64,000 nt of DNA from Pedobacter sp. BS3 (GTDB lineage: Bacteria; Bacteroidota; Bacteroidia; Sphingobacteriales; Sphingobacteriaceae): positions 62,001 through 126,000 of the forward strand of contig NZ_VTRT01000005.1 of the NCBI RefSeq assembly GCF_008274585.1, written 5' to 3'. The translations under genes were made by a program, and so were the position numbers. The notes under the pieces are model-generated. The model searched no databases, was not told where the DNA came from, and saw only the letters and a program-made list of their open reading frames with translations. The stretch's first letter is position 1. Every line of letters starts with the position of its first letter. Of the stretch, positions 6,373 to 32,105 are shown piece by piece.

Positions 6373-7046
6373 TAATTTAAGCGGGTGTCAATTTCTTCAA
6401 ATATAATCATAAAATCAAAATCAAAGTTATTGACATAATTGCTTATTACATCGCTTAGCTGAGCTTTTTGTGTATCGGTAAACGGATTTTTCCATAAACG
6501 GGCGCATATCTGGTTCAGGGAATAGGTAATGTTTTCTATTTCGCTGTAGCGATGCAGGTAGGCACTACGTATAAATTCGTCATAAAACCTGAAAAAATGA
6601 GGGATCTGATCAATGCCATTTATAGCTAAAAATTGATCGATTGCAGTTTTTTCTACCTGTTTCAGATAATTATAGAAATCCCCCGCATCAACAATTTCTT
6701 TTGTGATAAGCAGATGATCTAACAAAAGCTCAAGCGTTATATGAGCCAGGAAGGAAGGCCTTACCGGCGATTCTCCGATTACCGGCAGAACAGCCTGCTT
6801 AATTAGCTGTGTCTGTGAGAAAAAATAAGTGGAGTTATGGAAATGCTTGTCTACTTCGAGGTGCCGGTTCCATCCCCTAAGGATAAGAGATAACGCCGTA
6901 TCAGCCTGTAATTGTTCCGCATGCTTGTTGGGATGTATGATCCATGATTTATTGGCATTTTTTATCAAATCGGGCAGCACCGTTCCCAGTACCCTTTCGG
7001 GATGAGGACAATACCGGTCGAAATAAAAATGTGATAAAAAGTTCAT
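6372..7046 (-). CDS. Acyl carrier protein phosphodiesterase family (AcpH/DUF479)
   Basis: The N-terminus MNFLSHFYFDR and the segments VLGTVLPDL, GWNRHLEVDKHFHNS and RPSFLAHITLELLLDHLL match the AcpH family, with conserved His/Asp residues of an HD-like metal site. E. coli AcpH removes the phosphopantetheine arm from acyl carrier protein; function in Bacteroidota homologues is not well established. At 224 residues it is slightly longer than the ~195 typical of AcpH. It is the first gene of a two-gene minus-strand unit with the PorV/PorQ-like gene. Confidence 0.75.
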   Translation of the reverse strand: MNFLSHFYFDRYCPHPERVLGTVLPDLIKNANKSWIIHPNKHAEQLQADTALSLILRGWNRHLEVDKHFHNSTYFFSQTQLIKQAVLPVIGESPVRPSFLAHITLELLLDHLLITKEIVDAGDFYNYLKQVEKTAIDQFLAINGIDQIPHFFRFYDEFIRSAYLHRYSEIENITYSLNQICARLWKNPFTDTQKAQLSDVISNYVNNFDFDFMIIFEEIDTRLN

Positions 7047-7144
7047 GTTCGTTTCCTGTTCCTACAAAATAAGGATTTTTTCAGAATAGCCGAAATGTGT
7101 ATAGCGTGATTTCAGGCAAGCTTAGCTCGTTTGTACAATTCTCC

Positions 7145-7152
7145 TATCTTTG
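7145..7152 (+). promoter_or_regulatory. -7 box of tyrS
   Basis: TATCTTTG matches TAnnTTTG exactly and lies 30 bases before the tyrS ATG. No TTTG at the standard -33 spacing. Confidence 0.55.
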
Positions 7153-7181
7153 CAACGCGAATTTTAATATTAGTTTCATCC

Positions 7182-8462
7182 ATGAATTTTATTGAAGAAC
7201 TGAAATGGAGAGGTATGCTCCACGATATAATGCCCGGTACCGAAGAAGAATTAAACAAAGGTATGGTCGCGGGCTATATCGGTTTTGACCCGACAGCAGA
7301 TTCGTTGCATGTGGGGCATCTTACCCAGATCATGACTTTAATTCATTTTCAGCGGGCCGGTCATAAGCCGGTTGCACTGGTAGGTGGCGCTACCGGTATG
7401 GTGGGCGATCCATCCGGGAAATCTGCTGAACGTAACCTGCTTTCGGAAGAAATATTAACGCATAATGTTCGCTGCATTGAAGCACAGCTGAAGAAATTCC
7501 TGGATTTTAATTGCGGGGCCAATAGTGCCGAAATGGTGAACAATTACGATTGGTTCAAAAATTTTAATTTCCTGGATTTTATTCGTGATGTAGGTAAGCA
7601 TATTACCGTTAATTACATGATGGCTAAAGATTCGGTAAAAAAGCGCCTTGAAGGCGATGCCGGAATGTCGTTTACCGAGTTCAGCTATCAGTTGGTGCAG
7701 GGTTATGATTTTTACTGGCTCTGGAAAGAAAAAAACTGTAAGATACAGATGGGCGGTTCAGACCAGTGGGGGAATATCGTTACCGGAACAGAGCTTATCA
7801 GGCGCAAGGCCGCCGGAACCGCATTTGCCGTAACAACCCAGCTTATTAAAAAAGCAGATGGTACCAAATTCGGTAAGACTGAAAGTGGCGCCGTATGGCT
7901 TGACCCGAAAAAAACATCGCCCTATAAATTTTACCAGTTCTGGCTGAATACTACGGATGAAGATGCAAAAAGCTGGATACGTATATTCTCTTTAAAACAA
8001 CAGGAAGAAATAGAAGCGCTTGAAACAGAGCATGACCAGGCCCCGCACCTGCGGATTTTACAAAAGGCGCTTGCCGAAGAAATCACTGCACGTACCCATT
8101 CTGAGGAAGCGCTGCAAACCGCTTTAAAAACCTCGGAATTCCTTTTTGGAAATGGTTCGCTTGCATTTTTACAGGATATGACCTTTGATGAAGTATTGGA
8201 CGTGTTTGATGGTGTTCCGCAATTAAATGCATCAAAAACCGGTTTACAATCAGGTATTCCTGTTATGGATCTGCTGGCTGATACCGGTATTTTTCCGTCT
8301 AAGGGCGAAGCCCGGAAAATGATACAAAACGGTGGTGTTGCCATTAACCGGGTTAAGATTACGGATATTAATGAAGTGCTGACGACAGATAAGCTGGTTA
8401 ATAATGCGTTTATGGTTATCCAGAAAGGGAAGAAGAATTATTACCTGGTTATTTTTCAATAA
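7182..8462 (+). CDS. tyrS: Tyrosyl-tRNA synthetase
   Basis: Charges tRNA-Tyr with tyrosine in the cytosol. Start chosen at [11 protein letters not shown] (7182); upstream residues in the open frame lie inside the promoter region. The HIGH-like motif is HVGH in DSLHVGHL, followed by [17 protein letters not shown]. The KMSKS-like loop is KFGKT in [15 protein letters not shown]-terminal S4-type RNA-binding domain is at about 350-426 ([19 protein letters not shown]). The 426-residue length is normal for the TyrRS class. Confidence 0.97.
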
Positions 8463-8464
8463 AA

Positions 8465-8497
8465 TTTGATTTTTTTCAGACTTTTGTCGTAGCTTTG
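8465..8497 (+). promoter_or_regulatory. Promoter of the Xre/RES operon
   Basis: TTTG at 8465-8468 and TAGCTTTG at 8490-8497 are separated by 21 bases, fitting the Bacteroidota -33/-7 promoter. The antitoxin ATG follows 19 bases after the -7 box. Confidence 0.65.
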
Positions 8498-8515
8498 AGT
8501 ATTAATGTCTGATGT

Positions 8516-9001
8516 ATGGCAAAGAAAAATCAAGTTTCAGAACCTGCTGTTGCATACAATGCCCTGCCGCAATCTTCGGTAATGAACCTGTTCGGGGGGG
8601 CAAATATTTTGCACCTAACCGGGTCATTAAGCTCAGATTTTGAGTTTTTAAATCTTACCCGGCGGGGTATCCCCAAAAAGTCATTGCTAACACTGGCTAA
8701 AAAAATATCGCTTACCATTCAGGATATCGCAGATATTCTGCATATTTCAGAGCGTACGTTGCAACGCTATGATGATAACGCCCTGATTAAGCCGGAGCAC
8801 TCAGAAAAGGCCATTGAGCTTGCACGTTTGTATGCCCGTGGGGTAGAGGTTCTGGGTACTTTAGAGGCGTTTAAATCCTGGATGAACACCCCCAATTATG
8901 CCTTGCATAACGAAGTTCCGTTAAGTTTATTAGATACGTCAATCGGGTTCGATATGGTGCTTGCAGAGCTTGGCCGTATAGAACATGGTATATTCTGCTA
9001 A
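8516..9001 (+). CDS. Xre/MbcA/ParS-type antitoxin of a RES toxin
   Basis: Antitoxin with an N-terminal Xre-like helix-turn-helix (about 60-95, SLTIQDIADILHISERTLQRYD) and a C-terminal MbcA/ParS/Xre toxin-binding region (ELARLYARGVEVLGTLEAFKSWMNTPNYALHNEVPLSLLDTSIGFDMVLAELGRIEHG). Antitoxins of this family bind their own promoter and occupy the toxin active site. The 161-residue length fits. The stop overlaps the toxin start by one base (TAATG), so the pair is translationally coupled and probably autoregulated from the promoter just upstream. Confidence 0.9.
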   Translation: MAKKNQVSEPAVAYNALPQSSVMNLFGGANILHLTGSLSSDFEFLNLTRRGIPKKSLLTLAKKISLTIQDIADILHISERTLQRYDDNALIKPEHSEKAIELARLYARGVEVLGTLEAFKSWMNTPNYALHNEVPLSLLDTSIGFDMVLAELGRIEHGIFC

Positions 9002-9456
9002 TGCTCATATACCGGATAGCTACCTGCGCTTATGTTACCGATTTAAGTGGCACCGGTGCCCGTTTGTACGGTGGCCGCTGGAATGAAGTTGGCGTACCCA
9101 TGGTATATTTTGCATCTTCAAAACCTCTGGCTGTGCTGGAAGTGCTGGTGCATATCCGGCCTGACCAGCTTCAGGGAGATTATTGCTCAGCCTGTTTTGA
9201 TGTGCCTGAAAATAGTATTGACACTATTTCAATGTCCGATTTATCCATAGACTGGAAAGATAGCGCCAGGGCATTGCGCCTCAAATACATTGGAAAATAT
9301 TTTATAGCCGAAAAAAAGCATTTGCTGATGAAAGTGCCCTCGGCAATTGTTGAGGGCGAATATAATTACCTGCTTAATCCACTGCATCCGGATGCTTTGA
9401 AAGTCAGGTTGGTAGAAAAGAAGATTTTTGAGTTTGATAACCGCCTGAAGGAGTAA
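9001..9456 (+). CDS. RES-domain NAD+-degrading toxin
   Basis: RES-family toxins deplete cellular NAD+ and stop growth. The family's Arg, Glu and Ser are visible: GGRWNEVG (Arg26), YFASSKPLAVLEVLVH (Ser39/Ser40, Glu47) and PSAIVEGEYNYLLNP (Ser114, Asn122/126). The 151-residue length is typical. Located directly after its antitoxin with a one-base overlap. No frameshift or missing key residue is seen, so the toxin appears intact. Confidence 0.9.
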   Translation: MLIYRIATCAYVTDLSGTGARLYGGRWNEVGVPMVYFASSKPLAVLEVLVHIRPDQLQGDYCSACFDVPENSIDTISMSDLSIDWKDSARALRLKYIGKYFIAEKKHLLMKVPSAIVEGEYNYLLNPLHPDALKVRLVEKKIFEFDNRLKE

Positions 9457-10440
9457 CTATTGCACCAGCAGGTTGCATCCGCGGATATCGCTGTTGTCAA
9501 ACCTGCCAATAACCTCGAACGAATCATCAGGATACAACTTTCCTAAATCTTGCGTGGCAATAAAGGAACACGAGTGGATATTAGCTAAGTCGATAACATT
9601 AATTCCTCCGGTGTGGCCATGCTCGATCAGGCTTAGCGGGTCGTTGGTATCACGAAGCAATACCTTCATCCATCCCGGGCACCGGAAAATTCCATCGCTC
9701 TTTGAATATGCCTGCGAGAGTAGCTCGGTCATCCCATATTCAGAATGGATTGCCGTTACTCCAAAGCCTTTGCAAAGCAATTGGTGTAGCTCGGTGCGTA
9801 TCATTTCCTTTCGCCGGCCTTTCATACCGCCTGTTTCCATCACAATCAATTCCGGGAAATCAACGGTATACTGCTCGATGAAATCCAGCAGGGCATAGGT
9901 TACACCCAGCAGGATAGTTGGTATTTGCAGGGCTTTGAGGTTTTGCAGCGTTTGATATAGATCATGCTGGTTATACAGGAAATAACCGCTTTCCGTATGA
10001 TTACTTCTACGGATAAGGTCATCCGTCATATAAATTAATGATGAGCCTTCACGCTCCTGGTAAGAGGGCAACAACGCTAATATGGCGTAATGTGACACGT
10101 CGTCGTAAAAATGATTAAAAGCCGCCAGATAGCTTCGTTCATACAACGATACATCCGTTACCAGGTGCCTGCTTTGAACCATTCCTGTTGTTCCCGAACT
10201 GGTAAACACAATCTGCGGTTTAGCGTCGTCACAAATTACATCATGCGATTTAAAGAACCCGATAGGCAAAAACGGGATCTGTTCAATTTGTCTGACAGCA
10301 GGTATGTCAATTCCCAGGTTTTTAACAAAACTGGCATATACTTTATTGGCCGTGGCCTGATACCGGAAAATATCAAGTGCTAACTGTTCAAAGCGGACAG
10401 GGCTGTGCGCTGAAAATAATTGCTGAATAGGAATATTCAC
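9457..10440 (-). CDS. LuxE/PaaK-like acyl-protein synthetase family protein
   Basis: Adenylate-forming enzyme related to LuxE, which activates fatty acids for reduction in luminous bacteria. Motifs are the FFKSHDV segment, TSSGTTG (P-loop-like adenylation motif, about 80-86), METGGMKGRRKEM, the EYGMTELLSQAY motif and RCPGWMKVLLRD. No luxA/B/C genes are nearby, so a role in light is not supported; the Bacteroidota members have no assigned substrate. The only N-terminal start that keeps the FEQLALDIFRYQ segment is a GTG at 10440, placed immediately after a -7 box. It follows the small membrane protein gene on the same strand. Confidence 0.8.
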   Translation of the reverse strand: MNIPIQQLFSAHSPVRFEQLALDIFRYQATANKVYASFVKNLGIDIPAVRQIEQIPFLPIGFFKSHDVICDDAKPQIVFTSSGTTGMVQSRHLVTDVSLYERSYLAAFNHFYDDVSHYAILALLPSYQEREGSSLIYMTDDLIRRSNHTESGYFLYNQHDLYQTLQNLKALQIPTILLGVTYALLDFIEQYTVDFPELIVMETGGMKGRRKEMIRTELHQLLCKGFGVTAIHSEYGMTELLSQAYSKSDGIFRCPGWMKVLLRDTNDPLSLIEHGHTGGINVIDLANIHSCSFIATQDLGKLYPDDSFEVIGRFDNSDIRGCNLLVQ

Positions 10441-10444
10441 AGGG

Positions 10445-10452
10445 CAAAGATA
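10445..10452 (-). promoter_or_regulatory. -7 box directly before the LuxE-like start
   Basis: On the minus strand TATCTTTG is a perfect TAnnTTTG match, four bases before the GTG start at 10440. It implies transcription starting at or within the first codon. Confidence 0.45.
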
Positions 10453-10464
10453 CAGCTAAAAGAT

Positions 10465-10839
10465 TCAGGCCTTGTGTTCCGGATTTAAGCTTTTTGTAAA
10501 AAATGCTGCTTTGCAAAAATATCCTGCCAGGGCAGCCAAGCCGGCAACAAGTCCTCCGATCAAAGCTGTAACCAGTAAAATTACTATCCAACTAATGCTG
10601 GTTTCGGGTAACATAAACAACTGCGCTACCCGGTTGGCCAGCAAATTTTGGTTAGGAATGGTATAATACAAGGCAGTGCCTATCCATAACAAGAAAATTG
10701 CCCAGAACCCGGATTTAAAAGCGTTTTTGCCGGCTGTTGAGCGCCACAATGACAAAGCAAAAGCTACAGGAACAATAATCCACCAGGGTAAAAAGAGCTG
10801 CAAAATAAAAGCGACAATCAGTATAAATAAAAATAACAT
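10465..10839 (-). CDS. Small multi-pass membrane protein, unknown
   Basis: A 124-residue protein with about four hydrophobic segments: residues 1-30, 43-60, 78-105 and a short turn between the last two rich in Gly/Ala (ALIGGLVAGLAALAGYF). The tail is basic. No family is recognised. The ATG starts three bases after the stop of the penicillin-acylase gene, so the two are probably one transcript. The LuxE-like gene lies 24 bases downstream. Confidence 0.7.
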   Translation of the reverse strand: MLFLFILIVAFILQLFLPWWIIVPVAFALSLWRSTAGKNAFKSGFWAIFLLWIGTALYYTIPNQNLLANRVAQLFMLPETSISWIVILLVTALIGGLVAGLAALAGYFCKAAFFTKSLNPEHKA

Positions 10840-10842
10840 GGC

Positions 10843-13275
10843 TTAGCGATTTGAAAATTTAACCGTATGGAACTTTTTATCTGTTACGGGCGAAATAAGA
10901 AAATGCAGGCTATCCAGGTTGCCCGTTGACCAGATGGTCAGCATATCATCGTAGTAAAAGCTGCCGGGATTACCGGATTGCCCGCCGGGAATAATACCGT
11001 AGGCTTTTACAGGGTTGCTTAGATCAACAACCATACGCCATGAAGGGCCGCTTTCCGGCCCTAAGGCATTCACTGCGCCTTTAGCGCCGCCAATGTGCAA
11101 TATCCTGGAACCAAATCCGGCAATTTTAGCCAGGTGATTTACCCGCCGGCTTCTTACATTGCCCCACTGCCATTGGTAACTTACAGGGCCGAATCCTCTT
11201 ACCAGGCTATCAACCGCATAACGGAATGATTTATCAACCAAATCTTTTAGTGTTTCTTTTTGCGGGGTTTTTACATTATCGAACCAGCGGGAATCCGGTT
11301 CGTGTAGAATAAGCTGAACGGTTCTATCCTGCGATGGATAACGCATGGGGAATTTCGTGTCGCCAAAATCATCATCCCAAATTTCTTTTGACAGGTTTTG
11401 CTGCCATATCTCGAAAATACTAGCTGCTTTTTCATCGGCATTATAGCGTTTGTTCCAGTTTTTCATCAGGTATAAACATTCACCCTCGGTAGCTGAAAGA
11501 TTATCCCGGTTAAGGTATGATAATAAAGTAGGCAGAATCTCGTCTGCCAGCATGCTGTAATTGTCGTTTTGCAGGTTGCGCATACTGTCAACGGTGGCGT
11601 TGCTCATGGCAGACAAGCGGGCATTAAGGCGCTCGGCCCGTTCGTTGAGCGAAAATTCCCAGTTAACGTAATAAGGATATGTACTATCAGTAGAAGGTTG
11701 ATTAGCCGAAACAAGGTAACCTTGCGGCGGATTTTTTACCGTTGGGTTCTGGTCTGCCGGGATGCGGCCATGCCAGTCGTTTTGGGGATTGCTGCCATCC
11801 AGCAAAAATTTGCCCTGGTCTTTCCACTTTAGCGGGAAGTAACCATTGGGTGTAATGGCAATATCGTTATTGGTGCTGGCAAAGATAAAGTTCTGTGCCG
11901 GAGCCGTAAAGCAGGTAAGGGCTTTGCGATAGTCATCGTAATTTTTTGCCCGGTTAAGCAGGTAAAATGTTTTGATGTCTGATGACGGGTCGTGTGCAAT
12001 CCACCGTAAGGCATATCCCTGCGGCACATTGGCGGCTTTTGAAAAATTGCCCGGTTTTTGATTTTCAAGATAAACCACAGGCCCCTGGTGCGTGTACAGA
12101 ACCGTATCTGATACGGTTTTTCCACCGCGAACACGGATAGTTTCAATACGTTGCTTTATAGTATTCCATTGGTTATTATACCAATATTGTTTATGCTGGT
12201 TGTCCTTAAATTTTACGCTGTACCAATCCAGCACATCGGCATATACGTTGGTAACGCCCCAGGCAATATGCTGGTTAAACCCGATAATGACGCCCGGCGA
12301 GCCGGGAATTGATACACCATACACGTTCATTCCGGGCGAACTGAGCTGCACCTGGTACCAGATGGCCGGTAAGGTGAGGTTAAGGTGTGGGTCGTTAGCC
12401 AGCAAGGGATGCCCGCTTGCTGTTTTGTTGCCGGATAAGGCCCAGTTGTTACTTCCAATGCCGCTTTCATGTTGCTTTGTCGTGATAGTTGAATTGAATG
12501 CCGTATAGGTATCTGGTATTTCTGGAATGGCTACGGGCTTAAAATTCCAGGTTGTACCGGCGGGTATGACCGGGTTGGATTTGTAATAGAAATCGGGAAA
12601 CAGGTCGCTGGTAATTTCGGGGCCGTATTTTTTCAGGATATTGCTCATATAAAATTCATCAGAACCTCCGGCCAACGTAGCCGACATGAGCTTGAGCAAT
12701 AAGGCCGAATTAATGATCTCCCATTTTTCGGGTTTGTAATCCAGTAGCTTGAACTCGATGGGGTAATCTCCGGGCTTTAGCTGGTTGATGTACGCGTTTA
12801 CACCGTCGGCATAACGTTGCAATACCCGCTTCTGTTCAGGATCATTATCCAACTGCTTAACCATATTTTCGGCGCCGTAGCCCATCCCCATACGGCGTTG
12901 GTAACGGTCTAACTCCAGGGCCTTGGCGCCCACAACTTCCGATAGCCTTCCTGCCGCGAAACGGGTTTGAAAGTCCATTTGCCACAAACGGTCGCGGGCG
13001 GTTAAATATCCCTGAATAAAGTATAGATCATCATCGTTTTGGGCAAAAATGTGTGGAATCCGGTGTTCATCAAACGTGATGCTTACCGGGCTTCTGAGGC
13101 TATCCAGCGCCATATCCTGTAAAGAAAACCGGTTGATCTTCTCGGCGTTTTTCCAGAATCCCCGGAATGGATTTAAAAATTTACCCAATGGCGGGATATC
13201 GCCTAATTTGGTATTTAAAATGATGGTGAATGCAATAACAAAGGCTGATAGACCAATAGCTTTAGCGTATTTCAT
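10843..13275 (-). CDS. Penicillin-acylase-family N-terminal-nucleophile hydrolase
   Basis: Periplasmic amidase of the penicillin acylase/AHL acylase superfamily. It is made as a precursor that cleaves itself, freeing a Ser as nucleophile. Start chosen at the ATG at 13275, giving an N-terminal membrane/signal segment KYAKAIGLSAFVIAFTIIL. The cleavage site is GIGSNNWALSG with Ser275 as predicted nucleophile. The A-chain segment DLYFIQGYLTARDRLWQMDFQ and the B-chain ANDPHL and GFNQHIAWGVTN segments are all family hallmarks. About 810 residues is normal. The natural substrate could be penicillins, acyl-homoserine lactones or other N-acyl compounds; the sequence does not decide. Confidence 0.9.
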   Translation of the reverse strand: MKYAKAIGLSAFVIAFTIILNTKLGDIPPLGKFLNPFRGFWKNAEKINRFSLQDMALDSLRSPVSITFDEHRIPHIFAQNDDDLYFIQGYLTARDRLWQMDFQTRFAAGRLSEVVGAKALELDRYQRRMGMGYGAENMVKQLDNDPEQKRVLQRYADGVNAYINQLKPGDYPIEFKLLDYKPEKWEIINSALLLKLMSATLAGGSDEFYMSNILKKYGPEITSDLFPDFYYKSNPVIPAGTTWNFKPVAIPEIPDTYTAFNSTITTKQHESGIGSNNWALSGNKTASGHPLLANDPHLNLTLPAIWYQVQLSSPGMNVYGVSIPGSPGVIIGFNQHIAWGVTNVYADVLDWYSVKFKDNQHKQYWYNNQWNTIKQRIETIRVRGGKTVSDTVLYTHQGPVVYLENQKPGNFSKAANVPQGYALRWIAHDPSSDIKTFYLLNRAKNYDDYRKALTCFTAPAQNFIFASTNNDIAITPNGYFPLKWKDQGKFLLDGSNPQNDWHGRIPADQNPTVKNPPQGYLVSANQPSTDSTYPYYVNWEFSLNERAERLNARLSAMSNATVDSMRNLQNDNYSMLADEILPTLLSYLNRDNLSATEGECLYLMKNWNKRYNADEKAASIFEIWQQNLSKEIWDDDFGDTKFPMRYPSQDRTVQLILHEPDSRWFDNVKTPQKETLKDLVDKSFRYAVDSLVRGFGPVSYQWQWGNVRSRRVNHLAKIAGFGSRILHIGGAKGAVNALGPESGPSWRMVVDLSNPVKAYGIIPGGQSGNPGSFYYDDMLTIWSTGNLDSLHFLISPVTDKKFHTVKFSNR

Positions 13276-13417
13276 ACAAGCTAAAGTACAAATAAACACG
13301 TATTTGTGCGGTTGCTAAAGTTTGATTTTTTTGAGGCTTTGTGCATTAGATGTTTAATAATTTGTTGAATTTATTGCGATGTTGATATGTTTAATGCGTT
13401 TAATTGCGATATCTGTG

Positions 13418-13425
13418 TATATTTG
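13418..13425 (+). promoter_or_regulatory. -7 box of the GH31 gene
   Basis: TATATTTG matches TAnnTTTG, 16 bases between its end and the ATG at 13442. No exact -33 TTTG. Confidence 0.5.
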
Positions 13426-13441
13426 AGTTTAATGGCCTGAA

Positions 13442-15916
13442 ATGAACACAATGGAAGATAAGAAAGAGATTACGGAAGAGACTCAGAATCAATATAGTAT
13501 AGAGCAACTGGATGAAGGCATACAGCATGTAAATAACCCGGTTGTAGGTGTGCAGCCTGTAGAAAAGAAATACTTAACAGCCGTAAAAGAATATAACCAG
13601 CTTTATAATAATTTTTATTTTTCTGATGGCGATGCCAGGGTAGAGGTAAGAGTGGTTAGCGATGAAATAATCCGTGTGCGGATGGCGCCCCACGGTACTT
13701 TCCTGGAAGATTTCTCGTATGCTGTTCCGCAAACAGAGCAGCGGGCAACTGTATTTTCGTTCAACGAGACTGTTGATGCGTATAAAGTTTCTACCAACAC
13801 TATTGCATGTATTATTTATAAGGAAAATTTCCACATCGCTTTTGCGGATAATATAGATACGATTATTAACGAGGACGCGATTGCCATGCATTGGGAGGAA
13901 AACCTGGATTATGGCGGTTACTACGTTTATGCAACTAAAAAAGCTACCGAAACCGAAGCCTTTTATGGCCTGGGCGATAAAACCGTAGACCTTAACCTTC
14001 GTGGCTCACGCCTGCAAAACTGGAATTCGGATACCTATTCGTTTGCCAAAGGCCAGGATCCTTTGTACCGCTCAATTCCTTTTTATATCGGCATAAACGG
14101 CGAAACCAGCTACGGGATATTTTTTGATAATACCTTTAAAACACAGTTTGATTTTGCCCATGAAAATGCCGGGCAAACCAGCTTCTGGGCCGATGGCGGT
14201 GAACTGCAATACTACTATATACACGGGCCTAAAATGATAGATGTGGTAAAACGTTACCATATTTTAACCGGAACTCACCAGTTGCCGCCTATGTGGGCTT
14301 TAGGTTTTCATCAGTGCCGCTGGAGCTATTATCCCGAAAGTAAAGTAAAGGATATAGCCCGGAACTTCAGGGAACGTAAAATTCCATGTGATGCCATTTA
14401 CCTGGATATTGATTATATGGATGGCTACCGTTGTTTTACCTGGAATAAAAAATATTTTCCCGATCCAAAACGGATGATCAAAGAGCTGGCGGATGATGGA
14501 TTTAAGACGGTTGTAATTATCGATCCCGGAATTAAAGTAGATGAAAATTACTGGGTATTTCGCGAAGGAAAGGAAAAACGGTATTTCTGTCGCCGGTGTG
14601 ACGATTACTTTATGGAAGGCTATGTTTGGCCCGGACGCTGTCAGTTTCCTGATTTTACCAATCCTGAAGTACGTGAATGGTGGGGCGGTTTGTTTAAAGA
14701 ATTGGCGGAAACCGGCGTTGCAGGAGTATGGAATGATATGAACGAGCCTGCAGTTTTCGGAACCGGTACATTCCCGGTAGATGTGCGGCATAATTACGAT
14801 GGTTATCGCGGGTCGCACCGCAAGGCGCATAATGTTTACGGTATGCAAATGGTGCGTGCCACGTACGACGGGCTTAAAAAACAATATAAAAGCAAACGTC
14901 CGTTTACTATAACACGAGCCGGCTATTCCGGCGTTCAGCGGTATTCTTCTGTCTGGACAGGAGATAACGTGGCATCGTGGGAACACCTTAAGCTGGGTAC
15001 AGTGCAATGCCAGCGATTATCGATGTCGGGCATTTCATTTTGCGGAACGGATATCGGCGGATTTAGCGGTGAGCCCGATGCTGAATTATTTACCCGCTGG
15101 ATACAGTTTGGCGTATTCTCGCCATTTATGCGGGCCCATTCGGCCGGCGATACCCGCGAACGCGAACCCTGGAGCTTTGGCGAGGAATACGAGGCTATAA
15201 ACCGTAAGTTCATTGAGCTGCGATACCGTTTATTGCCTTATATCTATTCTGCATTCTGGGAACAACATCGTTATGGCTTCCCGATATTGAGGCCCGTAGC
15301 AATGCTTGAGCAGGCAGATCAAACTAATCACTACCGTGAGAACGAATTTACATTTGGCGATAAAATCCTGGTTGCTCCTGTAACAGAGCCTGGTCAGAAA
15401 AGCAAGATCGTCTATCTGCCGAAAGGTAAATGGTACGATTACTGGACGCACGACCTGATTGAAGGGGGCGCTGAAATTACTGTAAATACGCCATTAGACA
15501 GTATGCCGATCTTTGTCAGGGCTGGTTCGGTTATTCCCGAATCGCCGCTGATGCAATATGTTGGCGAATTTGAACCGGACGAGGTAATGTTCCAGGTTTA
15601 TTATGCCGATTATGAAGTTAACTCATTTTGCTACGAAGACCACGGCGATACCTTTGCATACGAGCAGGATATCTACATGGAAAAGAAGTTTGTTGTAAAT
15701 GGTGACGCTTCTTCGTTTACCATCAGGCAATCTATAGAAGGTTTGTTTACACCGAGATATGAAACTTATGATCTGAAGATCATTAGCCTGCCTTTTAAAC
15801 CGGCACGTATTGTTGTTGATAATAAAGATTATGCCGGATCGCTGGAGGAAGATGAACTGAAATGTATCCGGATAAAGGTGAATAAAAACTTTAAATACAT
15901 ACAGGTGCTGGCTTGA
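13442..15916 (+). CDS. Glycoside hydrolase family 31 alpha-glucosidase
   Basis: Retaining exo-glycosidase, most likely an alpha-glucosidase. The nucleophile is Asp432 in GVWNDMNEP and the acid/base Asp508 in WTGDN. Other GH31 hallmarks are PPMWALGFHQCRWSYY, the DAIYLDIDYMDGYRCFTW segment, SFCGTDIGGFSG and FSPFMRAHSAGDTREREPW. N-terminal beta-sandwich at about 40-270, the barrel to ~650, then C-terminal beta domains. No signal peptide is seen, so it is probably cytoplasmic and may act on glycogen or maltodextrin with the branching enzyme 2 kb downstream. Two ATGs (13442, 13451) are possible; the first follows the promoter at a normal distance. Confidence 0.93.
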   Translation: MNTMEDKKEITEETQNQYSIEQLDEGIQHVNNPVVGVQPVEKKYLTAVKEYNQLYNNFYFSDGDARVEVRVVSDEIIRVRMAPHGTFLEDFSYAVPQTEQRATVFSFNETVDAYKVSTNTIACIIYKENFHIAFADNIDTIINEDAIAMHWEENLDYGGYYVYATKKATETEAFYGLGDKTVDLNLRGSRLQNWNSDTYSFAKGQDPLYRSIPFYIGINGETSYGIFFDNTFKTQFDFAHENAGQTSFWADGGELQYYYIHGPKMIDVVKRYHILTGTHQLPPMWALGFHQCRWSYYPESKVKDIARNFRERKIPCDAIYLDIDYMDGYRCFTWNKKYFPDPKRMIKELADDGFKTVVIIDPGIKVDENYWVFREGKEKRYFCRRCDDYFMEGYVWPGRCQFPDFTNPEVREWWGGLFKELAETGVAGVWNDMNEPAVFGTGTFPVDVRHNYDGYRGSHRKAHNVYGMQMVRATYDGLKKQYKSKRPFTITRAGYSGVQRYSSVWTGDNVASWEHLKLGTVQCQRLSMSGISFCGTDIGGFSGEPDAELFTRWIQFGVFSPFMRAHSAGDTREREPWSFGEEYEAINRKFIELRYRLLPYIYSAFWEQHRYGFPILRPVAMLEQADQTNHYRENEFTFGDKILVAPVTEPGQKSKIVYLPKGKWYDYWTHDLIEGGAEITVNTPLDSMPIFVRAGSVIPESPLMQYVGEFEPDEVMFQVYYADYEVNSFCYEDHGDTFAYEQDIYMEKKFVVNGDASSFTIRQSIEGLFTPRYETYDLKIISLPFKPARIVVDNKDYAGSLEEDELKCIRIKVNKNFKYIQVLA

Positions 15917-23824: not shown

Positions 23825-24218
23825 CTGTTTGTTTTTTATGTTTTTAATGGTCAGATGAAACCTTCGATGCTTATCTAATGTTTATTTTAAGCATGCTGGT
23901 TTCATGAGATAATTGTTTATCAATAAAATATAACACCGTTTACAATCAGCGGTTTGAATACCCGGCCAATTTGTTTTCAGATCAAGCGTAAAGTTGCTAA
24001 AACCAGCCGATATAAAAAATAACCGGGTTTGGCTTTTTGTTTTGAGAATTTGGCTTTGGGTATACCCGTTTTAAGCCCGGGCTTGTCCGGTTATGGGCAG
24101 ATAATCATGGTAATCACAACTTTATTATAAATATCAGATAATACGTTTCAGAATATTACTTTTAGGCTCATGGAAACCTAAGAACACAGGTTGACAGTTT
24201 TAATTGCTTAATAATTTA
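23825..24218. other. Intergenic region between divergent genes
   Basis: About 390 bases of AT-rich DNA between the divergent sugar dehydrogenase and AhpD-like genes. It should hold both promoters but no TAnnTTTG box was found at a useful place, and no ORF, hairpin or repeat stands out. Confidence 0.5.
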
Positions 24219-24677
24219 ATGATGGAAAAAATATCGTACAACGAGCTGCCGGACGGCCTGATGCAGGTTATGAGGCAGGTAGAAGCTTACATTAACGGTT
24301 CAGGACTTGATCGCAAGCTGCTTGAGCTGCTACGTATGAGAGTATCGCAGATAAACAGTTGTGCCTATTGTATGGATATGCACTATAAAGAAGCTATTCA
24401 TGCAGGCGAAACGCCGTTACGTTTGATCTCTGTATCAGCCTGGCGGGAAACGCCATATTATTCGCCAAAAGAACAAGCAGTGCTGGCTTTCGCCGAAACG
24501 CTTACGCGGATGCGGGAAGAGGAGCACAGCGACCATATCCATGAAGATCTGCTGAAATATTTCTCTAAACAGGAAATAGCATACCTTAGCCTTGCTGTGG
24601 CCCAGATCAATTCCTGGAACCGTTTGATGCGTTCGTTTGGAAGTGTTCCCGGAAATTATAAAGTAGGGCAGCATTGA
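24219..24677 (+). CDS. AhpD-like carboxymuconolactone decarboxylase-family protein
   Basis: Small helical protein of the alkylhydroperoxidase D family. The redox motif is CAYCMDMH (CxxC then H) at about residues 48-55, in LRMRVSQINSCAYCMDMHYKEA. Members can reduce peroxides with a thiol pair. The rest (SPKEQAVLAFAETLTRM, AYLSLAVAQINSWNRLMRSFG) is typical. Start is one of two adjacent ATGs (24219 or 24222). The length of about 152 is normal. No redox partner gene adjoins. Confidence 0.9.
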   Translation: MMEKISYNELPDGLMQVMRQVEAYINGSGLDRKLLELLRMRVSQINSCAYCMDMHYKEAIHAGETPLRLISVSAWRETPYYSPKEQAVLAFAETLTRMREEEHSDHIHEDLLKYFSKQEIAYLSLAVAQINSWNRLMRSFGSVPGNYKVGQH

Positions 24678-25214: not shown

Positions 25215-27527
25215 ATGGCATCCCAGCTTTCTATAAATGAGATTTTAACTAAAAAAAGCTCAACCCAGCAGCATTACAATGGCTATCAGCCTTTGTTTTT
25301 CAGGCTTGCAGATCGTGCGCAAAAGCAGCAATTGTTTGACCTGCTTACTGAAAAACCATACATAACGGTGTATGACACTATTCAGTCGCAACTTGGAGAA
25401 CTGGTAAAATCTTTTCAGCCCAGCGAAACATTAACCGATAAAGAGCAGCATGAAGCTGTTGAAAGACACCTGAATGGTATCGATCCGCATGATTATGGCG
25501 TTTGGGTATACTATCCGTGGAGCGAGAAATTGGTGCATATAGTAGATGAGGCAGAATTTATTGCTTTAAGAACCAACCGGAACCGGTATAAAATTACTGA
25601 TGAAGAACGGTTAAAGCTTTCTGAAAAGAGGATAGGCGTGATCGGGTTATCAGTTGGGCAATCCGTATCGCTTACACTGGCTATGGAGCGTACCTTTGGC
25701 GAGTTGCGTATTGCCGATTTTGATGAGCTTGAAATTACCAACCTGAACCGTTTACGAAGCGGCATACACAACATGGGTCTGAAAAAAACCGTTCTGGTTG
25801 CCCGTGAAATTGCCGAGATAGACCCTTTTCTGAAAGTTACCTGTTTTCACGAGGGGATAACCGATACCAATATGGAAGCCTTTTTACTGGAAGGTGGCAA
25901 GCTGAATGTGCTGATTGATGAGTGCGATGGGGTAGATGTGAAAATTAATTGCCGCATAGCCGCTAAAAAACATCGTATCCCGGTACTGATGGAAGCCAGC
26001 GACAGGGCAACTATTGATGTAGAGCGTTTTGACCTGGAGCCCGACAGGCCTATTTTACACGGGTACGTTGAGCATCTGGATCTCTCTAACGTTAAGGATG
26101 CCAAAACCATGGAAGAAAAACTGCCTTATATATTACCGATAGTAGGTGTGGAAACCATGTCGACCCGTCTTAAAGCCTCGGCAATAGAAATAGGACAAAC
26201 CATATCTACGTGGCCTCAGCTGGCCAGTGCGGTAACTATGGGCGGTGGCATGACTGCCGATATATGCCGCAGGGTGCTGCTGGATCAGTATCATCAGTCT
26301 GGCCGGTATTTTATTGATATCGAAGAGCTGGTTGGTGATCCGAAGGAAGAAGAACCGGTATTCCGGTATACCAAAAGATCGTTAAATGAGCAGCAAATGG
26401 CTGCCGAAGCAGCAAAAGTTGAGCCTTTATATCATCAGAACAGCGTAACCGATGCCGATACGTTAAAAACACTGGTAGCAGCGGCGGCCATAGCACCCTC
26501 GGCAGGTAATAACCAACCCTGGAAATGGTACTCAGACGGTAAGCAGATCTATCTTTTTCATGATATAGAACGTTCAGAATCGTACGGCGATTTTGAAAAT
26601 ATGGTGTCGTACGTAACGTTTGGTACAGCTATCGAAAACCTGAAGCTTAAGGCCGCCGGGTTAGGCCTGAAAGTAACAGAAAAACTATTCCCGTTAGAGG
26701 GTCAGCCATTGTTGATCGCCGTATTCAGCTTTGAGAAAGCAGCCGTTCGTAAAGATGACCTGGTAAACTATATAACCATCCGTTTTACCAACCGGCATTT
26801 AGGGCAGGGTGGTCAGATAGAAGCAGATCAACTGGCCGAAATGCGTTCGGTTGCTTCAGAGGTTCCCGGGGCAGCACTGAAGATCATTGAAGGAAAACAG
26901 AATATGGAGGCATTGGCTGATATCACCGGTCAGGCCGAAAAGCTGCGGCTTTTTATCCCGCAAGGTCATTACGAGCTTTTTGAAAAAGAAATGCGTTGGA
27001 GCAAAGAAGAAGTTGAGACCGCAAAAGATGGATTAGATATACGCACGTTAGAATTAAGTCCCAAAGATGCTATCGGATTCCGCGTAGCCAGAGATCTCAG
27101 GGCTGTGCAGATGGTTGCTTCCTGGAATAAAGGAAAAGCGTTAGAAAACATGACCGCCAAGCTGGTGGCAACATCTGCTGCCGCAGCATTGATAACTATG
27201 CCCGCCTTTGATCCGGTCAATTGTATACGGGCTGGTGTAGCGTTAGAGCGTGTGTGGCTTACCGCCAATAAACATGCTATTTCATTACAGCCAATAATGG
27301 CCGCCATACTGCATTTTGCCCGTTTAAATTACGGTAATGGCATTGATATGCCGGCAAATATTCAGCAGGAGTTCAGAAAATTAAATAAAGATTTTAATAA
27401 GCTGTTTAAGCTGGATGGACAGCAGGAAGAACCCTTGTTCCTGGTTAGATTATTTACAGGTGAACAACCAAGCTCAAAATCCCTTCGGTTAGACTTAGAT
27501 AAGGTTTACTTTACCAGCAAAAAATAA
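25215..27527 (+). CDS. E1-like (ThiF/MoeB) and nitroreductase fusion, Rv1355c-like
   Basis: Two domains in 770 residues. Residues ~130-380 are an E1-type ATP-binding Rossmann fold: IGVIGLSVGQSVSLTLAM, ADFDELEITNLNRLRSG and VLIDECDGVDVKI correspond to the GxGxxG, DxDxVxxxNLNR and DxxD regions of ThiF/MoeB. Residues ~415-700 are nitroreductase-like: LVAAAAIAPSAGNNQPWKWY for FMN binding, and VNYITIRFTNRHLG. The N-terminal ~110 residues are unlike known E1s. The layout matches the uncharacterised Rv1355c family (annotated moeY in M. tuberculosis). No partner ubiquitin-like or sulfur-carrier gene is nearby. It is followed two bases later by an acyltransferase-like gene, so the two are one operon. 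Confidence 0.85.
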   Translation: MASQLSINEILTKKSSTQQHYNGYQPLFFRLADRAQKQQLFDLLTEKPYITVYDTIQSQLGELVKSFQPSETLTDKEQHEAVERHLNGIDPHDYGVWVYYPWSEKLVHIVDEAEFIALRTNRNRYKITDEERLKLSEKRIGVIGLSVGQSVSLTLAMERTFGELRIADFDELEITNLNRLRSGIHNMGLKKTVLVAREIAEIDPFLKVTCFHEGITDTNMEAFLLEGGKLNVLIDECDGVDVKINCRIAAKKHRIPVLMEASDRATIDVERFDLEPDRPILHGYVEHLDLSNVKDAKTMEEKLPYILPIVGVETMSTRLKASAIEIGQTISTWPQLASAVTMGGGMTADICRRVLLDQYHQSGRYFIDIEELVGDPKEEEPVFRYTKRSLNEQQMAAEAAKVEPLYHQNSVTDADTLKTLVAAAAIAPSAGNNQPWKWYSDGKQIYLFHDIERSESYGDFENMVSYVTFGTAIENLKLKAAGLGLKVTEKLFPLEGQPLLIAVFSFEKAAVRKDDLVNYITIRFTNRHLGQGGQIEADQLAEMRSVASEVPGAALKIIEGKQNMEALADITGQAEKLRLFIPQGHYELFEKEMRWSKEEVETAKDGLDIRTLELSPKDAIGFRVARDLRAVQMVASWNKGKALENMTAKLVATSAAAALITMPAFDPVNCIRAGVALERVWLTANKHAISLQPIMAAILHFARLNYGNGIDMPANIQQEFRKLNKDFNKLFKLDGQQEEPLFLVRLFTGEQPSSKSLRLDLDKVYFTSKK

Positions 27528-27529
27528 GG

Positions 27530-28243
27530 ATGATCTCTGTCGCATTCCGAGCATTTCGTGCTATAGATGAGCCTGAATCATGTGCCCGTTTTATAGAAGG
27601 GCACAGAAAGGTGCTTGAAATATTCGGAATTACAATGATCACTTCTAATAAAGCATTGTGGGTAAATCATAAAAATACGTATGTAATTTTAGTAGAATCG
27701 ATAGAAGATAGAAGACCTTTAGGTGGGGCACGTTTGCAAATTGCAGATGATGATCTTTTACTTCCTATCGAAGATGCAGTTGGAATTGTAGATAAAAGAA
27801 TATTTGACGTTGTTAAAAGTCACCGGCCACAGCGTACGGCAGAACTCTGTGGTTTGTGGAATTCGCGTGAAATTGCAGGTTATGGTATTGGGAGTTTCTT
27901 TTTAACAAGAGCAGCTATTGCGTTGGCCAGAGGACAGCTTAATATTAAAACACTTTTTGCACTCTGCGCTCCTGCCACGGTGAATATGTGTGCAAAAGCC
28001 GGTTTTATTATTGAGAAATCTTTAGGAAATGATGGATTTTTCAATTATCCGAAATTAGATCTTATAGCTACAGCAATGGTTATTGAGGATATTAATAATA
28101 TTCCGAGCGCTACCGAAGAAAATAGAAAATTTGTTGAGGATTTTATTAATCATCCTGTACAGAATAGAATTGAGAAGGGCCCAAAGGGAGAGATCATGGT
28201 AGAATATAATTTGTTACTTAATAATATTGATCAGGCCATTTAA
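27530..28243 (+). CDS. GNAT-like N-acyltransferase, possibly FeeM/autoinducer-synthase related
   Basis: A 237-residue protein whose middle (PLGGARLQIADDD, ELCGLWNSREIAGYGIGSFFLTRAAIALARGQLNIKTLFALCAPATVNMCAKAGFIIE) has the shape of an acyl/acetyl-CoA-dependent GNAT fold, similar to N-acyl amino acid synthases and LuxI-like enzymes. The family call is by pattern only. The start lies two bases after the fusion gene stop, implying coupling. Arg codons are unusual: 8 of 15 are AGA, against mainly CGT/CGG in the neighbours, and the gene is AT-rich, suggesting a different history. A sensor kinase follows. Confidence 0.6.
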   Translation: MISVAFRAFRAIDEPESCARFIEGHRKVLEIFGITMITSNKALWVNHKNTYVILVESIEDRRPLGGARLQIADDDLLLPIEDAVGIVDKRIFDVVKSHRPQRTAELCGLWNSREIAGYGIGSFFLTRAAIALARGQLNIKTLFALCAPATVNMCAKAGFIIEKSLGNDGFFNYPKLDLIATAMVIEDINNIPSATEENRKFVEDFINHPVQNRIEKGPKGEIMVEYNLLLNNIDQAI

Positions 28244-28261
28244 TTATAGCTTCATGATTTT

Positions 28262-28298
28262 AAAGAATGGCTAAAAAGCCCCTAACGTCATTCTTTTT
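28262..28298 (+). terminator. Weak hairpin after the acyltransferase gene
   Basis: AAAGAATG (28262-28269) pairs with CATTCTTT (28289-28296) around a 19-base loop, followed by TT. It may attenuate transcription into the kinase rather than stop it. Confidence 0.35.
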
Positions 28299-28338
28299 AG
28301 ATTAAAATAGATACTATAAAAAAAAATAAATCACGTTA

Positions 28339-30498
28339 ATGAAGATATTACAATTAAGGTTTTTATACGGGTTTGTGTTTTTTTGCCAATTAGTCGGCTC
28401 TAATGTATTGTATGCACAGAAAAAACAAGAAATAAAGCAGAGTGGAGGATTAGTCTACTCTATAAAAGTGTTAGAAGACAAAGATGGCCGGTTAACTATA
28501 AACAATATCTCCAATCAGAAATTTCAGCCTTTATTAACCAACGCACCCAACTACGGCTTAACAAATTCGGTTTACTGGTTCAAAATAGATATGATCAATC
28601 ATACTAATGAACAGGATTTCTTATTTAAAATTCAGAATGCAACTATCTCAAATTCTATATTTTATACGGTTAACCATGGGCTGATCAATACCCAGGTTAT
28701 AAAGAATACCACACCGTTAAAACAAAGAGAGTTTAATAGCCAGTACCCTTTATTCAAAGTCACACTTTTACCTGATTCTGCCCTTACATGCTATCTGAGA
28801 ATTTCGAGCAATAATGTGATGGATTTGCCCATGAGTCTTAAAAGTGATGTCAGCATATTAGACGATATCAATCTGGATCAGTGGTTTTTTGGTATTTATT
28901 CAGGTATCATCCTGATCATGTTTTTATATAATATTTTCATTTATCTCACAGTCAAGGATGATCAATACCTGTATTATGTGTTTTATATACTGGTTGTTGG
29001 GCTTACACAAGCCTGTCTGAAAGGGTACGCCGTAAAATTTTTGTGGCCCAATAATGAGTGGTTGATACGCCAGGCGCCTCATATTATTACTGCCTGCTCA
29101 GGTATTTTTTCAATACTGTTTACATTTAACTTTTTGCATGTCAGGCAATATGCGCACAAGGTATATATAGTATTAAATACATTGATTGTAATTTACTTTG
29201 TATCTATAGCTGTATATCTGAGTGGAGGGTATATAGCCGGGCAGAAAATTCTACAGGCAAATACTAGCCTGGTGTCGGTAGTAATATTATCGTGTGGATT
29301 TTATACCTATAAAAAGGGATATAAGCCAGCGTTGTTTTTTAACATTTCCTGGTCGTTTTTCCTCGGTGGAGTAATTATATATATCCTGAAAGATGCCGGT
29401 GTGCTGCCGGTGAATAATTTTACCAGCAACGCCATTTTGATCGGCTCAGGTTTAGAAGCAACCCTGCTTTCGTTTGCGTTGGCCGATAAGATCAACATCT
29501 ATAAAAAGGAGAAAGAAAGATCGCAGGAAGAAACCGTTAGGGCCTTGCAGGAAAACGAACGCATTATCCGTGAGCAAAACGTTATACTTGAAACAAAGGT
29601 AAATGAACGCACTTTGGAATTAAAGGCCGCTAACGAAGAGCTGAATGAAGCACTTGAAGACCTGAAACAGGCGCAAACACAATTGGTAGAGTCAGAAAAG
29701 ATGGCCTCGTTGGGTCAGTTAACTGCCGGTATAGCACACGAGATCAACAACCCCATCAACTTTGTAACCTCAAACGTAAATCCGCTAAAGCGTGATGTTG
29801 GCCAGCTTTTAGACGTTATTACCAGTCTCGAAGAATTGAGCGTATCAGACCTGGCTGTTGCCGATAAGCAGAAACGCATTGATGAGCTGAAAGAAGAAAT
29901 GGATTTCGATTATCTTAAGGTTGAAATATCACATTTGCTGAACGGTATTCATGAGGGCGCTTCGCGTACGGCAGAAATTGTTAAGGGCTTACGTATTTTC
30001 TCACGTGTGGATGAAGACGATTTAAAGCGTGCCGATATTAATGCCGGGTTAGATTCAACATTGGTTATTGTAAATAACCTGCTGAACAACAAAATCAAAG
30101 TCACAAAAAACTATGCCGACCTGCCCTTGATAGAATGTTATCCGGGTAAATTGAATCAGGTATTTCTAAACCTGTTAACCAATGCCATACACGCTATAAA
30201 GTCTGTATTTGGCGATAATACGGGCGGCGAATTAACCATTAGTACTTACTTTGATGCCGACAATGTTTTTGTGAAAATTACCGATAACGGTACAGGTATG
30301 GATGCCGATACACAGAAAAAGATATTCGAACCTTTTTTTACTACCAAAGAAGTTGGTGAGGGTACAGGCCTGGGAATGTCTATCGCATACAATACCATCA
30401 AAAAACATAATGGCCAGATTTTTGTAGAGTCTGCCGTTGGAGAAGGGACAACGTTTATACTGGAGTTGCCAATTGTACACAAAATACAGGCAACCTAA
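28339..30498 (+). CDS. 7TMR-DISM sensor histidine kinase
   Basis: Membrane sensor kinase. Signal peptide at 1-26 (YVLYAQ region), a periplasmic 7TMR-DISMED2-like beta domain at ~30-185 (SVYWFKIDMINHT), seven membrane helices at ~190-390, then a coiled coil and the kinase core. The H-box is GIAHEINNPINF with phospho-acceptor His467, followed by the N-box NQVFLNLLTNAIHAI, DNGTGMD and GEGTGLGMSIAYNTIKKHNG. The extracellular domain family usually binds carbohydrate-like or other small ligands. The DNA of the sensor half is more AT-rich than the kinase half. It precedes a receiver-kinase and a receiver, which may be its targets. Confidence 0.93.
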   Translation: MKILQLRFLYGFVFFCQLVGSNVLYAQKKQEIKQSGGLVYSIKVLEDKDGRLTINNISNQKFQPLLTNAPNYGLTNSVYWFKIDMINHTNEQDFLFKIQNATISNSIFYTVNHGLINTQVIKNTTPLKQREFNSQYPLFKVTLLPDSALTCYLRISSNNVMDLPMSLKSDVSILDDINLDQWFFGIYSGIILIMFLYNIFIYLTVKDDQYLYYVFYILVVGLTQACLKGYAVKFLWPNNEWLIRQAPHIITACSGIFSILFTFNFLHVRQYAHKVYIVLNTLIVIYFVSIAVYLSGGYIAGQKILQANTSLVSVVILSCGFYTYKKGYKPALFFNISWSFFLGGVIIYILKDAGVLPVNNFTSNAILIGSGLEATLLSFALADKINIYKKEKERSQEETVRALQENERIIREQNVILETKVNERTLELKAANEELNEALEDLKQAQTQLVESEKMASLGQLTAGIAHEINNPINFVTSNVNPLKRDVGQLLDVITSLEELSVSDLAVADKQKRIDELKEEMDFDYLKVEISHLLNGIHEGASRTAEIVKGLRIFSRVDEDDLKRADINAGLDSTLVIVNNLLNNKIKVTKNYADLPLIECYPGKLNQVFLNLLTNAIHAIKSVFGDNTGGELTISTYFDADNVFVKITDNGTGMDADTQKKIFEPFFTTKEVGEGTGLGMSIAYNTIKKHNGQIFVESAVGEGTTFILELPIVHKIQAT

Positions 30499-30613
30499 AG
30501 TCAATATGTACGTATACCAAGTCCTGATAGAAACTAATTTTAAACACCCATCTGGCTATTCTAAATGTGGATTGATGCCGGGAAAGCATTGCAAGTTTAA
30601 ATAAGAAACCCGC

Positions 30614-31699
30614 ATGTCAGAAAAGATAAAAGTATTGTATATTGATGACGAGCCGAATAACCTGATCAGTTTTAAAGCATCATTCCGATTAGATTATCAG
30701 ATTTATACTGCTGATAATACACAAGACGCCTTGAAGCACCTGGAATCCCATCCCGATATGCGGATCATTTTTTGCGATCAGCGTATGCCTGATAAAACAG
30801 GTGTGGAGTTTTTTGAGGATGTCAGGGCGAAATATCCCTTACCTATACGGATATTGTTAACGGGTTATACCGATATCGAGTCGGTTATAGACGCCATTAA
30901 CAAAAGTCATATTTACAGGTATGTTAAAAAGCCCTGGATTAATGAAGACATTGTATCGGCCATAGACGAAGGAAATAAATTTTACCTGGCAAATTCCATG
31001 CTGTCGGTTAAAAACGATATCCTGCAAAAGGCCTATAACGAGCTTGATAAGTTTGCATACAGTGTCAGCCACGATATCAGGGGGCCGCTTTCAGGTATAG
31101 CCGGAGCTATTACCCTGGCCAGTGAGATGAACGATATCGGCGAAATTAAAGATATGCTCAGGTTAATGGGTAAATCGGTTAAAAAGCTCGATGAATTTAT
31201 CATGAGCATGCACGATTATTATTCGCTGAAGAGAGGCGAGCTGCATATTGCTGATATAAATTTTGATAACCTGATAACCGATCTGAAAGAAATTTATAAG
31301 ATATATACCACCACCAGGAATATTCATTTTGAAACCAGTGTACACCAGACAGAGCCTTTTCGCAGTGATGAATTATCGCTTAAAATTATCCTGAATAACC
31401 TGCTTTCAAACGCTTTTAAATACCAGAAAAGAGACAATAGCTACCACATGGTAAAACTTAGTATTGATGTACAGAATGGTATGGCTACCTTTGTAGTAGA
31501 AGATAACGGTGTTGGCATTCCCGAAAAGCATATTGGCGAAATATTTAACCTGTTTTTCAGGGCCAGTGCCCTTGATGCCGGAACCGGTTTCGGGTTATAC
31601 AATGTAAAAGATGCGCTGTTAAAATTAAATGGCCAGGTGCATGTAGATTCCACACTTGGCATAGGTTCTACTTTTACTATTAAAATACCAAATAAATAA
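30614..31699 (+). CDS. Receiver-histidine kinase hybrid, soluble
   Basis: N-terminal receiver (1-125) with phospho-acceptor Asp55 in FCDQRMPDKTGVEF and Lys in YVKKPW. A kinase core follows: His153 in YSVSHDIRGPLSGI, NNLLSNAFKYQ (N-box), DNGVGIPEKHIGEIFNLFFRAS, and GTGFGLYNV. There is no membrane segment, so it takes its signal through the receiver, probably from the membrane kinase upstream (116 bases away). The next gene, a lone receiver, starts four bases after the stop and is its likely output. Confidence 0.93.
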   Translation: MSEKIKVLYIDDEPNNLISFKASFRLDYQIYTADNTQDALKHLESHPDMRIIFCDQRMPDKTGVEFFEDVRAKYPLPIRILLTGYTDIESVIDAINKSHIYRYVKKPWINEDIVSAIDEGNKFYLANSMLSVKNDILQKAYNELDKFAYSVSHDIRGPLSGIAGAITLASEMNDIGEIKDMLRLMGKSVKKLDEFIMSMHDYYSLKRGELHIADINFDNLITDLKEIYKIYTTTRNIHFETSVHQTEPFRSDELSLKIILNNLLSNAFKYQKRDNSYHMVKLSIDVQNGMATFVVEDNGVGIPEKHIGEIFNLFFRASALDAGTGFGLYNVKDALLKLNGQVHVDSTLGIGSTFTIKIPNK

Positions 31700-31703
31700 G
31701 CTA

Positions 31704-32105
31704 ATGAAGTTTTCATTTATTGTGATTGATGATAGTGAGCTTGACTGTTATATTGCAGAGAAGCTGATTAACCATACGGGTAAGAGTGCCGGATTTAAAT
31801 CTTTTATCGATGCAGCATCAGCATTAGAACATATCAGCAAACAACAGCCTGATGGTGATAAAGCGGTTATTTTATTAGATATTATGATGCCGGTGATGAA
31901 TGGCTTTGATTTCTTAGAATCATTCATCACTATGCCGGCTCAGGTGCAGCAACAGTTTCTGATCATTGCCATTACGTCATCTATGAATAAAACAGATATA
32001 GCCCGTATTAAGAATTATGAAGCTGTAAAAGGAGTGATAGATAAACCCGTAACCATTAATGCTGTTTCTGCCATCATTAGCCAGGAAGGTTTGGAGTGGG
32101 ATTAA
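31704..32105 (+). CDS. Stand-alone response regulator receiver
   Basis: Single CheY-like domain of 133 residues, with the acidic pair near DDSELD, phospho-acceptor Asp59 in ILLDIMMPVMNGFDF, Thr/Ser at IAITSSM and Lys in IDKPV. No DNA-binding output domain is present, so it signals by protein contact. It is coupled to the hybrid kinase with a four-base gap. This family is often the terminal single receiver in Bacteroidota phosphorelays. Confidence 0.93.
   Translation: MKFSFIVIDDSELDCYIAEKLINHTGKSAGFKSFIDAASALEHISKQQPDGDKAVILLDIMMPVMNGFDFLESFITMPAQVQQQFLIIAITSSMNKTDIARIKNYEAVKGVIDKPVTINAVSAIISQEGLEWD

Follow-up and report, generated by a model that had tools for sequence, protein, structure and literature searches.

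The window, by which we mean the whole stretch of 64,000 nucleotides that was analyzed, contains a six-gene cassette in which a fusion of a predicted ThiF/E1-like cyclase (E1) with a flavin-dependent oxidase (FDO) and a predicted N-acyl amino acid synthase (NAT) are encoded next to a membrane sensor histidine kinase, a receiver-histidine kinase hybrid (REC-HK) and two receivers (REC and REC2; Table 1). Among related loci the enzyme encoded beside NAT, termed here the finishing enzyme, has been swapped many times, and the sensor half of the kinase is exchanged together with it, whereas the kinase core and NAT are not. Judging from the sequences, we put the probability at roughly 0.68 that the cassette is a quorum-sensing-like module in which the neighboring kinase has as its ligand the module's own product, a capped N-acyl amino acid; at this locus the ligand is probably an oxazolone. 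The first-pass annotation had already suggested a small molecule that is both made and sensed, and the co-exchange of sensor half and finishing enzyme is added evidence for that reading, while the signaling function itself we infer. The five co-directional genes described in the annotation, with a gap of two bases between the fusion gene and NAT, were all recovered as open reading frames on the plus strand, and their domain content agreed with the Pfam and NCBIfam matches (ThiF plus nitroreductase, a weak GNAT match, 7TMR-DISM kinase, REC-HK and REC). An AhpD-like gene near the fusion gene (24204–24677) was considered as a further member but left out, as no homologue of it was reported close to the fusion at the loci listed.

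Table 1. Features of the cassette, in coordinates of the window
Feature	Position	Strand	Basis or remark
ThiF/E1-like cyclase + Acg-type FDO fusion, 770 aa	25215–27527	+	Pfam, NCBIfam
ThiF/E1-like part of fusion	about 25215–26369	+	
Acg-type FDO part of fusion	about 26427–27524	+	
NAT, predicted FeeM/LuxI-type N-acyl amino acid synthase, 237 aa	27530–28243	+	AlphaFold, Foldseek, VIA
7TMR-DISM membrane sensor histidine kinase, 719 aa	28339–30498	+	Pfam; directly downstream of NAT
Kinase sensor half (DISMED2 + 7TM)	28462–29508	+	Co-varies with finishing enzyme
Kinase core (HisKA + HATPase)	29659–30483	+	Conserved across types; phospho-acceptor H467
REC-HK hybrid, 361 aa	30614–31699	+	Pfam Response_reg + HisKA + HATPase
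Lone receiver REC, 133 aa	31704–32105	+	Pfam Response_reg 3.7e-11
Receiver REC2, 154 aa	32407–32871	-	Pfam Response_reg 3e-20

The fusion protein matched the NCBIfam model NF005901 ('Rv1355c family') over residues 18–765 with 796 bits (cut-off 476), and Pfam detected both its ThiF domain (2.7e-14) and its nitroreductase domain. Rv1355c is TrzS, which receives an N-acyl amino acid from TrzA and in which the ThiF domain cyclizes and the FDO desaturates N-acyl tryptophan to give tryptazolone (PMC12856293); OxzAB and TyzACB give related tyrosine and phenylalanine products (PMC10404671). The adenylation-site residues D168, D170, R179, K191 and D238 of the fusion are invariant in 24 Bacteroidota homologues, and D238, located within an ECD motif, probably corresponds to D217 of TrzS, an equivalence drawn through related actinobacterial TrzS sequences in place of that of M. 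smegmatis. In the FDO part, R578 and Q692 are aligned with residues of actinobacterial TrzS that may be the counterparts of R540 and Q651 (the numbering is approximate), and the oxidase glutamine at the Q692 position is a histidine in some Bacteroidota homologues. The fusion is ∼32–37% identical to TrzS-family members on plasmids of mycolic-acid bacteria, and it belongs to the TrzS/Rv1355c family as a predicted N-acyl oxazolone synthase. Related enzymes also occur in other arrangements. On a Streptomyces plasmid (NZ_CP109497.1; L040:7179–9047), E1 and a GNAT-like domain are joined in one protein of 622 aa, and the next gene encodes a ketoacyl-ACP synthase III; on a Rhodococcus plasmid (L043:4009–8211) a GGDEF gene lies near the TrzS homologue, recalling the c-di-GMP neighbors described for trzAS in Mtb. 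At one further locus (L181 in G646, 8189–13798), the oxidase half is separate in a second frame and the operon contains an extra receiver.

NAT gave a weak GNAT match in Pfam (E 0.034), and nothing relevant was matched when its profile was run against PDB sequences. When its AlphaFold model (pLDDT 90.8) was searched with Foldseek, the top match was FeeM (2g0b, E 3e-8); the CoA-dependent AHL synthases BjaI and MesI came next. Alignment with VIA-align gave Z scores of 16.9 for FeeM and 15.6 for LasI. General GNATs score nearly as high (up to 16.5), so the fold alone leaves the substrate unfixed. NAT models as an N-acyl amino acid synthase of the FeeM/LuxI type, and TyzA has also been reported to be FeeM/BjaI-like (PMC10404671). 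One cassette (L176 in G628) contains a tandem pair of synthase genes, one of them with an in-frame stop.

In the kinase, the DISMED2 (6e-27), 7TM (2e-48) and HATPase (9e-25) domains were all above the Pfam cut-off, and HisKA was slightly under its own. The phospho-acceptor residues are in place in the kinase (H467), the hybrid (D55 and H153), REC (D59) and REC2 (D55). The term 'complete phosphorelay' used in the first-pass annotation is nevertheless too strong, because Pfam finds neither an Hpt domain nor a DNA-binding output domain (HTH) in the cassette proteins of the window; an autoinducer-binding domain was likewise not detected by Pfam in the six proteins. Across loci, the kinase core is far better conserved than DISMED2, with mean pairwise identities of 0.535 and 0.230, respectively, and a single clade of cassette kinases was neither demonstrated nor rejected (p-AU 0.69). 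The genome to which the window belongs has three 7TMR-DISMED2 loci, one of them seen as two partial matches, so the adjacency of NAT and kinase would not be expected by chance. The two partial matches of the second DISMED2 region (L198, G000:C23:22671–23062) are in different frames and may represent a frameshifted kinase.

The association between the enzymes and the kinase is widespread. The first loci examined had been located by means of the fusion or of its E1 domain; both the synthase and a 7TMR-DISM kinase are present in them, so that homologues of the fusion do have conserved neighbors. Among 296 Bacteroidota genomes, E1 was found in 11 and NAT in 12, and kinases scoring above 460 bits occurred in exactly those 12, with the best kinase in genomes lacking NAT reaching 293 bits; close relatives of the kinase are thus not found there apart from the acyltransferase. 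Both outcomes are contrary to those that the first-pass annotation had named as fatal to the system idea. NAT is common: within the class of the source organism 76 of the 395 genomes have it, and within its family 106 of 201. The cassette is patchy even inside the genus, as the one congeneric genome searched (G640) lacks the synthase. We parsed 86 neighborhoods, selected mostly by NAT alone and including one duplicate (L189, identical to L025); L142 was not parsable. In 85 of them NAT is followed by the kinase, and the same holds for 59 of the 60 parsed loci that were chosen by NAT alone. Such repetition argues that the gene order is not due to chance. The originally described five-gene block was upheld, but its membership was incomplete: REC2, which had been overlooked, is present in 76 of the 86 loci (75 times on the opposite strand) and by sequence comparison is a sixth cassette gene and part of the conserved set. 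The REC-HK hybrid is found within five genes of NAT in 77 loci and the lone REC in 42. The locus without a kinase (L161 in G475, 8304–10159) combines a very distant synthase (54 bits) with E1, which may reflect an earlier or another use of these two enzymes.

The gene beside NAT encodes an E1-FDO fusion in 45 of the 86 loci, E1 without the oxidase in 27 and a class I SAM methyltransferase (MT) of about 254 aa in 11, the rest being an ICMT-type methyltransferase, a lone oxidase at a contig edge and a case with no such gene (one each). The MT label changes 11 times on the NAT tree, and at least seven of these changes are forced by well-supported branches. The MT structure has a generic class I SAM fold, and the carboxyl methyltransferases LahSB and JHAMT are among its many near matches, a resemblance that is only generic. 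What the cyclase and carboxyl methyltransferases have in common is the carboxylate of the N-acyl amino acid, which MT would probably cap as a methyl ester. In the ICMT case (L086:9703–11090, G126), a carboxyl methyltransferase of that type stands between synthase and kinase, where E1-FDO would otherwise stand. In the locus lacking a finishing enzyme (L163 in G481, about 6293–9093), the kinase directly follows the synthase, and its sensor is closest to cyclase-type sensors.

Trees of DISMED2, 7TM, kinase core and NAT were compared for 82 loci. The MT label changes twice on the DISMED2 tree (bootstrap 5–95%, 2–4) and twice on the 7TM tree (2–2), and 10 times on each of the kinase core and NAT trees (9–10); shuffling of the labels (E1 versus MT/ICMT) gave a mean of 10.5 changes. 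All 10 MT loci tested have another MT locus as nearest neighbor by 7TM, compared with three by kinase core and four by NAT. The MT-MT sensor similarity that was left after regression on NAT and kinase core exceeded that in all 1000 label permutations. The same pattern is visible within a single genus, in which five methyltransferase-type and 10 cyclase-type species were compared. Pairs of different type share 76% identity in NAT, 24% in DISMED2, 31% in 7TM, 69% in the linker, 73% in the kinase core and 67% in REC-HK; for pairs of cyclase type the corresponding values are 75, 42, 64, 64, 70 and 66%. Identity between types therefore rises from 24–31% in the sensor to ∼70% from about residue 390, at the end of 7TM. 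Mirror-tree partial correlations of DISMED2 with NAT (0.33), E1 (0.15) and its own kinase core (0.01), which are weak values without a significance test, agree in direction with this co-variation. The idea that the sensor also distinguishes oxidase-bearing from oxidase-less loci was rejected: for the 59 loci with the order E1-NAT-kinase, the sensor followed oxidase presence no better than NAT or kinase core did (7–9 changes, compared with four on the E1 tree).

The following mechanism would account for these observations. NAT would N-acylate an amino acid, the ThiF domain would adenylate the carboxylate of the N-acyl amino acid and close the ring to an oxazolone (azlactone), and the FDO would desaturate it. 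The cyclase is apparently replaced in other species by a methyltransferase, which would probably form a methyl ester on the same carboxylate. Either finishing enzyme would take away the carboxylate charge to leave a neutral N-acyl product, which could exit the cell and bind the periplasmic/7TM half (DISMED2/7TM) of the kinase in the same or neighboring cells. The kinase would then pass its signal on to REC-HK and the two receivers, a direction of phosphotransfer that, like the output, we infer.

The main rival to this make-and-sense reading is that the kinase senses some other cue, such as stress, a competitor or the state of the envelope, and that the oxazolone or ester whose production it regulates serves as an antibiotic, membrane lipid or surfactant and is not the ligand. 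Two-component genes often adjoin biosynthetic genes. Antibiotics are reported to induce oxazolones in proteobacteria, and in Mtb a link of oxazolones with stress is reported (PMC12856293). However, the sensor half tracks the class of the finishing enzyme across backgrounds and the kinase core and NAT do not, and a cue unrelated to the product would give no obvious reason for such tracking, which makes this explanation unlikely. A further explanation is that the kinase gene exchanges its 5′ half along with the finishing gene solely because the two are neighbors between conserved flanks (NAT and kinase core) in which recombination can take place, with no functional match between them. In the genus compared, the order NAT-finishing gene-kinase is found in both types, so the exchanged block is contiguous, and because the MT gene abuts the sensor in MT loci, the two could come to co-vary by moving as a single piece, with no ligand specificity involved. 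Joint transfer of this kind is a partial alternative to ligand matching. As a full account it is improbable, given that the switches are repeated in about ten NAT/core backgrounds, that MT loci are consistently nearest to each other in 7TM, and that in 60 loci E1 lies beyond NAT from the sensor, yet the sensors there separate from MT sensors. Protein modification of the ubiquitin-like kind, with E1 activating a protein substrate and the GNAT acylating a protein, would fit membership of the ThiF/E1 superfamily but is hardly credible and was rejected, as NCBIfam assigns the fusion to the Rv1355c family, a characterized small-molecule cyclase-desaturase (PMC12856293), and NAT models as FeeM.

The enzymes and the sensor domains belong to known families. 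The literature searched (open-licence PubMed Central) contained no account of their stable union, of the series of finishing-enzyme swaps or of the matching sensor mosaic. The physiological role of oxazolone lipids has been described as a major unresolved question (PMC12856293), and the series of finishing enzymes with matching sensor halves makes a signaling role directly testable. The pattern in many Bacteroidota, in which probable makers of fatty-acyl amino acids stand beside a membrane sensor, half of which is exchanged with the finishing enzyme, is what would be expected if the product is made and sensed. If this is true, it would point to a class of ligands for 7TMR-DISM kinases, assign a common function to DISMED2/7TM sensors and oxazolone lipids, and hint that Bacteroidota have a system of small-molecule communication of their own, of which the literature searched contains no report.

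TrzAS (Rv1356c-Rv1355c) of Mycobacterium and Rhodococcus, which makes N-acyl tryptazolone, resembles the cassette in that a ThiF-FDO fusion assigned to the same NCBIfam model stands beside an N-acyltransferase, but its published neighbors are c-di-GMP genes (PMC12856293) in place of the 7TMR-DISM kinase. The NAT profile matched nothing in the five actinobacterial loci tested. OxzAB of Pseudoalteromonas rubra and TyzACB of Mtb follow the same logic of acyltransferase, ThiF and FDO, but no linked sensor kinase has been reported for them (PMC10404671). As in quorum-sensing systems, synthase and putative receptor are linked and co-occur here, and the sensing part co-varies with the presumed signal-making genes with respect to cyclase versus methyltransferase, though not oxidase presence. 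The LuxI/LuxR AHL system differs in its LuxR-type DNA-binding receptor, which has no counterpart by Pfam among the six window proteins. In LuxM-LuxN and CqsA-CqsS of Vibrio, the gene for a small-molecule synthase lies beside that for a sensor kinase which spans the membrane several times and has receiver domains. LuxN and CqsS are quorum-sensing kinases (PMC8895600). These systems share with the cassette a synthase gene beside a membrane sensor kinase and receiver domains, but their synthase family and sensor domain are different, and the signal chemistry of the cassette is predicted from its genes. In the ComQXP and Agr pherotypes, the kinase's sensor half differs together with the genes that make the signal, and the flanks of this variable block are conserved. 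That comQXP is polymorphic has been described for Bacillus subtilis (PMC4408185). The sensor-half mosaic of ComQXPA (Bacillus subtilis) and Agr (Staphylococcus) is like the one observed here; those systems use peptide signals in Gram-positives, whereas the cassette belongs to Bacteroidota and its signal would probably be an N-acyl amino acid derivative.
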